Part shown: in pieces, positions 10,921-14,496 of the stretch
Position numbering within the stretch: the stretch's first letter is position 1
Layout of the letters: each line of letters begins with the position of its first letter
From: Aurantibacter crassamenti
GTDB taxonomy: Bacteria; Bacteroidota; Bacteroidia; Flavobacteriales; Flavobacteriaceae
Assembly (NCBI RefSeq): GCF_016811105.1
Contig: NZ_JAFBGM010000001.1
Span: forward strand, 558,001 to 622,000
Length of the DNA stretch: 64,000 bases
Direction: 5' to 3'
Translations under genes and position numbers: made by a program
The notes under the pieces: model-generated
What the model was told of the DNA's origin: nothing
Database searches by the model: none
The model's input: only the letters and a program-made list of their open reading frames with translations

Positions 10921-12819
10921 ATGAGCGATGCGATAAAGCACGAATGTGGAATTTCACTTATACGCCTTTTAAAGCCATTGGAGTATTACAAAGAGAAGTA
11001 TGGTTCAGCTTTTTACGGTGTAAACAAGATGTACTTGATGATGGAAAAGCAACACAACCGTGGTCAAGACGGTGCGGGCTTTGCTAGCATTAAGTTAGAT
11101 GTACCGGTAGGTGCTCGGTTTATGAGCCGAGTTCGATCAATTGAACAACAACCGATACAAGATATTTTTGATAAAATTAATCATAGAATTAATTCAGAGT
11201 TACTAGAGCATCCTGAATATAATGATGATGTAGCATTACAAAAAGCTAACATTCCTTATATAGGTGAATTACTTTTAGGTCATGTGCGATATGGTACTTT
11301 TGGCAGAAATAGTATGGAAAGTGTGCACCCGTTTTTGCGTCAGAATAACTGGATGCATAGAAACCTTATTGTTGCTGGTAACTTTAACATGACCAATGTT
11401 CATGAGCTTTTTGACAATTTAGTTCAATTAGGGCAACACCCTAAAGACATGGTTGACACCGTAACGGTAATGGAAAAAATAGGTCATTTTTTAGATGATG
11501 CTGTTGCCAAGCTTTACAAACAAATAAAAAAAGAGGGTTACACTAAACGAGAGGCTTCTACATTAATCGCCGATCGTCTTAAGGTTTCGAAAATTCTAAA
11601 AAGAGCTGCAAAAAACTTTGATGGTGGTTATACTATGGCCGGACTTTTAGGGCACGGAGATGCTTTTGTACTTAGAGATCCAGGCGGAATTCGACCAGCA
11701 TATTTCTACCAAGATGATGAAGTGGTTGTAGTTGCCTCAGAAAGACCAGCAATACAAACCGTATTTAATGTAAAATATGATGATGTAAAAGAGCTTGATC
11801 CAGGCCATGCACTTATTATTAAAAAAAGCGGACGGGTTGCTATCGATCAAATTCTTGAACCCAAAGAAAGATTGGCCTGTTCTTTTGAACGAATTTATTT
11901 TTCAAGAGGTAGTGACAAAGAAATCTATCAAGAGCGTAAAGAGCTGGGTAAATTACTTTTTCCACAGATTTTGAAATCAATTAATAGCGATATTAAGCAC
12001 ACCGTATTTTCATATATACCGAATACCGCTGAAACATCATTCTACGGTATGGTGAAAGAAGCGCAAAATTATTTAAACAAAAACAAGGAAGAAGAAATTC
12101 TTTCAATTGGACCATCTATTTCAAGAGAGAAACTTCATGAAATATTAAAAGTACGTCCACGCATAGAAAAGGTTGCAATTAAAGATGCAAAACTGCGAAC
12201 TTTTATAACACAAGACAGTAGCAGAGATGATTTGGTAGCACACGTCTATGATATAACCTATGGTTCTGTCAAGAAAGATGATAACCTAGTTATTATTGAT
12301 GACAGTATTGTTCGAGGCACTACATTAAAGAAAAGTATTATTCGAATTCTTGACCGTTTATCACCTAAAAAAATAATTGTAGTTTCTTCTGCCCCGCAAA
12401 TTAGATATCCTGATTGTTATGGTATTGATATGGCTAAACTAGAAGACTTCGTTGCCTTCAAGGCTGCTCTTGCACTACATCAAGAAAGAAATACAATGCA
12501 CATTGTTGATGAGATTTATCAAAAATCGCTAAAGCAAATAAATCAACCTGATAAAAATGTGGTCAATTATGTAAAAGAATTTTACGAACCTTTTACACCG
12601 CAAGAAATATCTGTTAAAATAGGTGAGTTATTGACATCAGAGAATATTAAAGCTGAAGTTCAGATAATTTATCAAACTATTGAAAACCTGCATATTGCCT
12701 GCCCAAAGAACCTTGGCGATTGGTATTTCACAGGTAATTATCCTACAGATGGAGGTAACAGGGTTGTAAACAAAGCGTTCATCAATTTTTACGAAGGCAA
12801 CAACCAAAGAGCTTATTAA
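10921..12819 (+). CDS. purF: Amidophosphoribosyltransferase
   Basis: First committed enzyme of purine synthesis, making phosphoribosylamine from PRPP and glutamine. The 632-residue protein has an Ntn-type glutaminase whose nucleophile is Cys9 in HECGISL, exposed after removal of a short propeptide. 'KQHNRGQDGAGFA' and 'LLGHVRYGTFG' follow as expected. The C-terminal phosphoribosyltransferase domain has the PRPP-binding motif VIIDDSIVRGTT (about residues 457-468). It is longer than the roughly 500-residue enterobacterial enzyme, with an insert and a C-terminal extension; such long forms occur in Bacteroidota. A purine context is supported by purN 4 kb upstream. A perfect inverted repeat lies just after its stop. 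Confidence 0.93.
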   Translation: MSDAIKHECGISLIRLLKPLEYYKEKYGSAFYGVNKMYLMMEKQHNRGQDGAGFASIKLDVPVGARFMSRVRSIEQQPIQDIFDKINHRINSELLEHPEYNDDVALQKANIPYIGELLLGHVRYGTFGRNSMESVHPFLRQNNWMHRNLIVAGNFNMTNVHELFDNLVQLGQHPKDMVDTVTVMEKIGHFLDDAVAKLYKQIKKEGYTKREASTLIADRLKVSKILKRAAKNFDGGYTMAGLLGHGDAFVLRDPGGIRPAYFYQDDEVVVVASERPAIQTVFNVKYDDVKELDPGHALIIKKSGRVAIDQILEPKERLACSFERIYFSRGSDKEIYQERKELGKLLFPQILKSINSDIKHTVFSYIPNTAETSFYGMVKEAQNYLNKNKEEEILSIGPSISREKLHEILKVRPRIEKVAIKDAKLRTFITQDSSRDDLVAHVYDITYGSVKKDDNLVIIDDSIVRGTTLKKSIIRILDRLSPKKIIVVSSAPQIRYPDCYGIDMAKLEDFVAFKAALALHQERNTMHIVDEIYQKSLKQINQPDKNVVNYVKEFYEPFTPQEISVKIGELLTSENIKAEVQIIYQTIENLHIACPKNLGDWYFTGNYPTDGGNRVVNKAFINFYEGNNQRAY

Positions 12820-12838: not shown

Positions 12839-12880
12839 ATTATCGATGAAATACACCAGATTATGTATTTCATCGATAAT
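12839..12880. repeat. Perfect 17-bp inverted repeat after purF
   Basis: Two perfect 17-nt arms, ATTATCGATGAAATACA (12839-12855) and its reverse complement (12864-12880), flank an 8-nt loop, 19 bp after the purF stop. There is no T-run on either strand, so it is not a standard intrinsic terminator. It may stabilise the purF mRNA 3' end or bind a dimeric protein. Confidence 0.75.
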
Positions 12881-12940
12881 ATAGGTCATTAATCGTGATT
12901 ATAACTATTTTGACGTATAGCCAAGCTATTTTTAAACTTG

Positions 12941-13009
12941 CCATAGCATAAGTAGGTTAAGTTCATGGTAAGATTTGGGGCAAAAAGGTGGAGTTCTCTC
13001 CACCTTTTT
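12941..13009 (+). ncRNA. Putative small RNA, copy A
   Basis: First unit of the array. Head 12941-12980, then an intrinsic terminator with arms GGTGGAG and CTCCACC around a TTCT loop and a T5 tail ending at 13009. A -7-like box TATTTTTA at 12927-12934 lies 6 bp before the head, one mismatch from TAnnTTTG. The direction of transcription is inferred from this box and the T tail. Confidence 0.65.
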
Positions 13010-13192
13010 ATTTGGCCAAAATCCAGATAAAATTAATGTGCTATTTGCATTAAAATCTTACATTATTTCTTTTCGCACTATTACAGTAATTATCATTTTT
13101 ATTAATCACCACAATAAAGCATCGTCAAAATACACTTTAACTGAATATTGGGGAGTTTAACAAAGATGTTTTTCAGCATCGAACACTCGCTT

Positions 13193-13200
13193 TATATTTG
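13193..13200 (+). promoter_or_regulatory. -7 box of sRNA copy B
   Basis: TATATTTG, exact TAnnTTTG match, ending 5 bp before the conserved head of copy B. The same spacing recurs in copies C and D. Confidence 0.65.
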
Positions 13201-13205
13201 GAGAA

Positions 13206-13274
13206 CCATAGCATAAGTAGGTTAAGTTCATGGTAAGATTTGGGGAAAAAGGCGGAACACAGTTCCGCCTTTTT
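13206..13274 (+). ncRNA. Putative small RNA, copy B
   Basis: Second unit. Head 13206-13245, terminator arms GGCGGAAC and GTTCCGCC (8 bp, ACA loop, 13251-13269) and a T5 tail to 13274. Predicted transcript about 69 nt. The head can close on itself through CCAT at its start and ATGG about 24 nt later. Confidence 0.7.
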
Positions 13275-13528
13275 ATTTGCTTTTTTTCTACAATGTTTCC
13301 TCTCAAAAAATACTTCAATTATAAAGTCATTACCATTCAAAATAATACATAATTATTATTTCAATTAATTACTAAACTGTTCCATTAAATCACTTTGCTA
13401 ATATTAATTTGGCACTACATTTTGTCTTCCTTTTCTTATCTTATTTTAAGGCATAAACCACGTTTCAGTAACACAGCCAAAGATTCTACCGTTCATCTAA
13501 AACCTTTTTTTAAAGTGCTTATTCGCTC

Positions 13529-13536
13529 TATTTTTG
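13529..13536 (+). promoter_or_regulatory. -7 box of sRNA copy C
   Basis: TATTTTTG, exact TAnnTTTG match, ending 5 bp before the head of copy C. The following GAGAA is shared with copy B, so the duplicated unit includes the promoter. Confidence 0.65.
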
Positions 13537-13541
13537 GAGAA

Positions 13542-13610
13542 CCATAGCATAAGTAGGTTAAGTTCATGGTAAGATTTGGGGAAAAAGGCGGAACACAGTT
13601 CCGCCTTTTT
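13542..13610 (+). ncRNA. Putative small RNA, copy C
   Basis: Third unit, identical to copy B through head and terminator (arms at 13587-13605, T5 tail to 13610). B and C are therefore the most recent duplicates, although the DNA between units is unrelated. Confidence 0.7.
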
Positions 13611-13746
13611 ATTTACTACAAGCCCAACAGTTAACAAGGTTAAGCTCAAATTCATTAAAATATCCACTTAATTTTCGGTTAATCAAAACCTTAAAAATTC
13701 CTAAAATTCCTTTTTTATTTCCTGTAATACCAGTAATTTAGTCTTG

Positions 13747-13817
13747 CCATAGCATAAGTAGGTTAAGTTTATGGTAAGATTTGGGACGAAAAGGGTAGAG
13801 TTTTCTCTACCCTTTTC
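13747..13817 (+). ncRNA. Putative small RNA, copy D
   Basis: Fourth unit. The head differs by a C-to-T change that turns the internal CATGG into TATGG, which pairs better with the initial CCATA (5 bp). The terminator is different in sequence but still perfect: AAAAGGGTAGAG and CTCTACCCTTTT around TTTT (789-816 within the 13 kb block). The -7-like box is TAATTTAG at 13734-13741 with the same 5-bp spacing. It lies only 16 bp before the sodA terminator. Confidence 0.65.
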
Positions 13818-13832
13818 TATTTACAATTCAAA

Positions 13833-13870
13833 AAAAAAGCTTCCAAGAAACTAATCTTGGAAGCTTTTTT
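13833..13870 (-). terminator. Bidirectional terminator at sodA 3' end
   Basis: Perfect 16-bp inverted repeat (core GCTTCCAAGA and TCTTGGAAGC) flanked by A and T runs on both sides, so it can end sodA on the minus strand and any read-through from the sRNA array on the plus strand. Confidence 0.88.
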
Positions 13871-13887: not shown

Positions 13888-14496
13888 CTACTTATTTGCA
13901 GCAAATAACTCAGCTACTTTATTCCAATTAATTACATTAAAAAATGCATTAACATAATCAGGTCTTCTATTCTGATAATTTAAGTAGTATGCATGTTCCC
14001 ATACATCTAAGCCTAAGATTGGGTGTCCGCCACAACCTGTATTTGGCATCAAAGAGTTATCTTGATTTGGTGTAGAACAAATTTCTACTTTTCCACCAGG
14101 CTGTACACAAAGCCATGCCCAACCTGATCCAAATCTTGTACCAGCAGCTGTGCTAAACTTTTCTTTGAAAGACTCAAACGAACCAAAAGCTGCATTGATA
14201 GCATCAGCTAATTCACCTGAAGGACTTCCACCACCATCTGGTGATAACACACTCCAAAACAAAGAGTGATTGTAAAAACCACCTCCATTATTTCGAACAG
14301 CCCCGTTAGACATGTCCAAATTCTTTAAAATATCTTCAATTGATTGTCCTTCAAGGGCAGTCCCTTCAATAGCACCATTCAATTTTGTTGTATAACCATT
14401 GTGATGTTTTGTATGGTGAATTTCCATAGTACGCGCATCAATATGTGGTTCTAATGCATCATATGCATAAGGCAATTTAGGTAGTTCAAAAGCCAT
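13888..14496 (-). CDS. sodA: Fe/Mn superoxide dismutase
   Basis: Cytosolic enzyme that dismutates superoxide to oxygen and hydrogen peroxide. The 202-residue protein has the four metal ligands at His27 (HHTKHHNGY), His77 (FYNHSLFW), Asp164 and His168 ([14 protein letters not shown]). The 'GSGWAWL' and 'DVWEHAYY' motifs are standard. Whether it uses Fe or Mn cannot be decided reliably; the sodA name is conventional. No signal peptide. A -7 box lies about 35 bp upstream and a strong terminator follows the stop. Confidence 0.97.

Follow-up and report, generated by a model that had tools for sequence, protein, structure and literature searches.

A multicopy family of putative small RNA genes located between purF and sodA in the Flavobacteriaceae

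Sibling small RNAs (sRNAs) such as Qrr, OmrA/B, and LhrC are multicopy paralogs that have their own promoters and a conserved common part, an arrangement that allows for dosage effects and for several inputs. The well-known cases of this kind act with Hfq and belong to other phyla. Few sRNAs of the Bacteroidota are understood. In Bacteroides, the FopS RNAs pair at the start codon of susC-type mRNAs and thereby repress them, an action opposed by the RRM protein RbpB (PMC11697453). The Flavobacteriaceae harbor the RNA motif Flavo-1 (RF01705), whose function is not known, and the Rfp RNAs of Flavobacterium psychrophilum, e.g., Rfp18, which are independently transcribed small RNAs (PMC9723704).

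The locus described here lies within a 64,000-nt stretch of the Aurantibacter crassamenti genome (contig NZ_JAFBGM010000001.1, positions 558,001 to 622,000), hereafter called the window. Four plus-strand units of roughly 75 nt, with heads starting at 12941, 13206, 13542, and 13747, occupy the interval between a purF-like gene (10921 to 12819, plus strand), which is the constant upstream neighbor, and a sodA-like gene (13888 to 14496, minus strand), which is the constant convergent downstream neighbor. A sequence-only reading of this DNA had proposed four independent short noncoding RNAs that share a near-identical head, and the four heads, each of 39 nt, indeed differ only by C or T at head position 24. 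Its claim that every unit ends in an intrinsic terminator also holds, given that a perfect 12- to 13-bp hairpin followed by a T-run was found in all four copies, with the arms located within 12982 to 13009, 13246 to 13274, 13582 to 13610, and 13788 to 13817. In a genome-wide search that allowed up to three mismatches to the head, the four array copies were the sole matches, all on one strand, and the reversed head used as a control gave 0 matches, so that chance is excluded. Two further statements of that reading were true in part. The terminators vary between classes of copies but not from every copy to the next, those of copies 2 and 3 being identical. The spacers, approximately 134 to 265 bp long, are not entirely unrelated, since copies 2 and 3 have similar promoter segments immediately 5′ of their heads (TCGCTYTATWTTTGGAGAA), and the spacers of different genera share a −7 box and an element near −50.

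Two inverted repeats were also seen in the interval. The one just 3′ of purF (12839 to 12880) has a perfect 17-bp stem (ATTATCGATGAAATACA) and an 8-nt loop, without a T-run. The other (13833 to 13870) has a perfect 16-bp stem with A and T runs on both flanks; it is probably the sodA terminator and is possibly bidirectional.

The transcriptional signals of the units were examined in 364 distinct copies collected from across the Flavobacteriaceae. The motif TAnnTT stands at one fixed distance from the head in 302 of these copies, and TAnnTTT[GA] occurs 181 times at the fixed offset versus at most 27 times at any other. This offset equals the position of −12 to −5 reported for the sigma-A promoter box of F. 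psychrophilum (PMC9723704), which places the +1 at the base before CCAU. The base predicted in this way is always a purine (A in 261 copies, G in 103, and a pyrimidine in 0). Moreover, the information content is about 2 bits from the base after +1 onward and, with the exception of the box, near zero just upstream. At the other end of the unit, a perfectly paired hairpin with a T-run is present in 345 of 363 copies and is built from 113 different stems, i.e., the predicted terminators vary in sequence with their pairing retained. The fixed box, the purine at +1, the invariance that begins at +1/+2, and terminators with varying stems indicate that selection acts on an RNA whose 5′ module is fixed. 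The units have the attributes of independently transcribed sRNA genes, namely, their own promoter, their own intrinsic terminator, and no conserved reading frame. These observations, together with the conserved synteny described below, support the interpretation of the units as putative small RNA genes selected at the RNA level, as the sequence-only reading had proposed.

In this genome the predicted +1 positions are 12940, 13205, 13541, and 13746, one base 5′ of the starts noted earlier, and the copies, which are classed by promoter and junction, follow the order A, B, B, D. Class A copies have a G at +1. Copy 1 (12940 to 13014, plus strand) belongs to this class, with G at 12940, the head at 12941 to 12979, and terminator arms at 12982 to 12993 and 12998 to 13009; its −7 box-like sequence (TATTTTTA, 12927 to 12934, plus strand), assigned from sequence and consensus, is shifted upstream by one base relative to the other copies. 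Class B is marked by a GGGGAAAA junction and by an element near −50 with the consensus GTT.a.C.AAAAccTTTTt. Its members here, both on the plus strand, are copy 2 (13205 to 13278; A at 13205, head at 13206 to 13244, terminator at 13246 to 13274) and copy 3 (13541 to 13614; A at 13541, head at 13542 to 13580, terminator at 13582 to 13610). On the same strand, copy 2 is preceded by the conserved upstream element GTTTAACAAAGATGTTTTT (13155 to 13173) and the −7 box TATATTTG (13193 to 13200), and copy 3 is preceded by the conserved upstream element GTTCATCTAAAACCTTTTTTTA (13491 to 13512) and the −7 box TATTTTTG (13529 to 13536). Class D is characterized by T at head position 24, GGGACGAAAAGGG, and a conserved promoter of approximately 50 bp with CACAATACCAGTAATTTAG. 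Copy 4 (13746 to 13822, plus strand; G at 13746, head at 13747 to 13785, terminator at 13788 to 13817) has this T and is preceded by a promoter block that is strongly conserved across genera (…TTTATTTC.…AATACCAGTAATTTAG; 13688 to 13741, plus strand), inside which the −7 box TAATTTAG is found (13734 to 13741, plus strand). The remaining copies form class C. Arrays with several classes usually open with A or C, continue with B, and close with D. No other promoter scoring like those of class B or D was found in the 1.26 Mb sampled (about 28% of the genome), and the B and D control elements therefore look private to the array. In class D, both here and in units elsewhere, conservation over about 50 bp extends through the spacer, far beyond that of a normal promoter, which suggests a dedicated regulator.

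The family is widespread. A 38-nt pattern matched 101 of 299 Flavobacteriaceae genomes, and a covariance model (R1) trained on 25 units also recovered diverged copies (CCATAACATTAGTAGGTTAAGTTTATGGTAGATTTGGGG-type) in records named Flavobacterium. Named records with copies include Zobellia, Maribacter, Cellulophaga, Aquimarina, Winogradskyella, Lacinutrix, Salegentibacter, and Flavobacterium. Strong matches in order- and class-level searches were confined to the Flavobacteriaceae, with no convincing copy beyond; the few R1 matches at E values of about 1e-5 outside the family are terminators with unlike heads that arise by chance. Viral contigs, phages, and plasmids gave no match to the unit. 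Both flanks are present in 86 named loci, and in each of these purF and sodA converge on the intervening units, every one of which has the orientation of purF. These loci hold one (24 loci), two (25), three (16), four (15), five (5), or six (1) copies, with a median start-to-start spacing of 206 bp. Rare copies away from purF and sodA (L019, L067, L115, and L125) have no common neighbor, which fits an autonomous gene. Together, this makes a solid sequence-based case for a previously unlisted, family-wide, multicopy family of putative sRNAs that have their own promoters and terminators and are fixed between purF and sodA.

Some arrays carry decayed or diverged copies at their edges (L043, L128, L091, and L094), which suggests birth and death of copies, and recent tandem duplicates with near-identical promoters were observed in others (L028 and L037).

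An Rfam scan of the window gave no family at gathering score, and nothing real appeared at E values up to 10, in agreement with the earlier statement that the units do not belong to a named RNA family. Flavo-1, which had been offered as a candidate, is excluded: no unit gave a match to it (gathering score of 42 bits), whereas the positive control in Flavobacterium swingsii scored 83.4 bits. In that genome, Flavo-1 (L112:5116-5193, plus strand) adjoins sodA on the side away from the array. A literature search with the head sequence matched no paper. The family thus appears to be new with respect to Rfam and the papers searched, with an overlap with an Rfp RNA being possible.

The predicted RNA fold begins with a 5′ hairpin (RCCAUA/YAUGGU) and a loop containing GUAGG, after which a linker, AGAUUUGGGG, is left unpaired ahead of the terminator. 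Taken by itself, the head does not exceed its shuffles in stability (z of −0.15), and its six hairpin pairs, three of which never vary, show no covariation beyond shuffles; the hairpin is therefore a prediction only. The linker tolerates one-base changes in length. In Flavobacterium-type heads (e.g., L048), the linker TAGATTTG places the −7 box consensus TAnnTTTG within the transcript itself. This may be due to chance, as an additional base in the Zobellia-type head disrupts the spacing.

Targets were sought in 1.26 Mb of the genome and in 30 susC loci, with the first ATG taken as the start and with limited power. The gene family with the lowest scores for pairing to the head was susC, with a mean z, relative to shuffled heads, of −1.6 for the 28 leaders of this genome versus −0.4 for other genes (p about 3e-7). 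These leaders were nevertheless not supported as specific targets, since leaders from Bacteroides, where the RNA is absent, pair equally well. In a genome of the same class that carries FopS and no known copy of the array RNA (G601), the head scored −1.15 on the leaders. FopS itself, used as a control, scored −2.46 on the same leaders and about −1.1 on flavobacterial ones, which indicates that the method detects a real regulator and that the array RNA lacks such a signal. The exposed linker showed no excess of complementarity at translation starts, and a search for long antisense matches to the head (26 nt of its reverse complement, with 3 mismatches allowed) returned only the sRNA genes themselves. 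Complementarity to rRNA was dismissed (best energy of −29.3 versus −28.8 for shuffles, with a standard deviation of 2.2), and none to tRNA was found. The best single leader belongs to a lipoprotein gene (ACTTAACC before the ATG, energy of −26.4); it was discarded because the gene occurs in few relatives and the pairing site is not kept. Overall, no conserved target emerged from the 1.26 Mb and the 30 susC loci. As a separate observation, the susC leaders of the Flavobacteriaceae (e.g., L207 to L234 and L362 to L401) are G-poor and rich in TAACTAA/AACTAA, and AACTAA occurs in 40 to 54% of susC leaders versus 6.5% of other genes. This is possibly a leader motif of susC genes in its own right.

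We favor, at about even chances, a trans-acting regulator that works through its invariant 5′ module, most likely by base-pairing near the translation starts of several mRNAs. By sequence comparison, each unit combines a sigma-A-type promoter and a predicted start at the purine before CCAU with an invariant module some 40 nt long, followed by an intrinsic terminator, and the units differ mainly in promoter and terminator. The 5′ end would form the hairpin from +1 and leave the GUAGG loop and the linker exposed. The candidate pairing segments are UUYAUGGUA, a strand complementary to UACCAUGAA that may pair near translation starts, and AUUUGGGG. Promoter classes A, B, and D would couple different signals to a common output, with the dose set by the number of copies. 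The earlier proposal of a conserved binding surface, dosed through the number of copies, is plausible and fits the one to six copies per locus. The pairing mechanism is favored by UUCAUGGUA..AGAUUU, which the head has in common with FopS, a start-codon-pairing sRNA (PMC11697453). However, an invariance of about 40 nt exceeds the needs of a seed, the susC excess is matched on Bacteroides leaders, the linker has no excess at starts, the hairpin lacks covariation support, and no conserved target was found. The same invariance of nearly every base in all paralogs and genera, the high copy number, and the absence of a target signal that stands out would agree with an RNA that mainly binds protein rather than mRNA through its loop and linker, as a titrating decoy or scaffold of the CsrB type whose amount is raised by several copies. 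This is possible, if somewhat unlikely, given that the linker tolerates one-base changes in length and that no candidate protein is at hand, Hfq and RRM_1 both being absent from the genome.

The degree of conservation and the fixed location could also indicate a 6S-like housekeeping decoy acting on RNA polymerase or the ribosome, for which the −7 box consensus within Flavobacterium heads would speak. We consider this quite improbable because F. psychrophilum is reported to have a distinct 6S RNA (PMC9723704), the Zobellia-type head does not keep the spacing of the box, and complementarity to rRNA or tRNA is lacking. Even less probable is that the array makes no regulatory RNA and instead insulates purF from sodA, either as a series of terminators or as a DNA repeat. 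Its terminators do always lie between these convergent genes, but it is the head that is invariant and not the terminator, promoters stand at fixed spacing, units are also found alone elsewhere, and the phage, plasmid, and viral sets gave no hint of a mobile repeat. Finally, the ATG within the head (ATGGTA) raises the question of a small peptide, which is barely credible. The bases of the head are fixed irrespective of codon position, genera differ in frame owing to the loss of one base behind ATGGTA, and translation in this frame would continue into a terminator that varies in length and sequence.

Since some 40 letters are nearly unchanged across the family beside a near-constant gene pair, the putative sRNA probably has an important regulatory job. 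So little change in a 40-nt element over many genera, at one locus where the promoter classes follow an order, implies a core function that annotation and Rfam have missed. In its strongest form, which we regard as rather unlikely, the reading is of an ultraconserved sRNA that has occupied the interval from purF to sodA from an early stage of the family and acts as a core regulator in the Flavobacteriaceae. It would bind a conserved cellular component with no need for Hfq or an RRM protein, and its promoter-specific paralogs would integrate several signals. Candidates for such a component are an RNA-binding protein and the machinery of transcription or translation. The array is small, can be removed as one piece, and is present in Flavobacterium, for which genetic tools exist, so that its role is directly testable.

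Among described RNAs, FopS of Bacteroides (RF04319) is the nearest in architecture. Both RNAs are about 65 to 75 nt long and have many paralogs with their own promoters, which are of the sigma-ABfr type in FopS (PMC11697453), and in both a conserved 5′ part is followed by an intrinsic terminator. With cmscan, UUCAUGGUA--AGAUUU of the head was aligned to UUCAUgGUAUUAGAUUU of FopS, a local score that 0.9% of shuffled heads reach; copy 1 scored 17.7 bits against a gathering score of 56. The FopS model found no match in this genome at an E value of 0.001, and R1 found none in the FopS loci. In contrast with the single syntenic array, FopS genes are scattered; the array RNA also has an extra 5′ stretch of about 20 nt, and its 5′ part is predicted to form a hairpin where that of FopS is single stranded. 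Neither the RbpB-type RRM partner (PF00076) nor Hfq (PF17209) had a match in the array genome. The array RNA is, by these sequence comparisons, not a FopS member, and it may work like FopS by analogy. Flavo-1 is a separate element from the array where both occur, as in F. swingsii. Rfp18, from the same bacterial family as the array, differs by its description, with at least three stem-loops and conservation within the genus (PMC9723704). Like Qrr, OmrA/B, and LhrC, the array consists of paralogous copies with their own promoters and a conserved common part, and it differs from them in being conserved over a whole family of genera at one locus.
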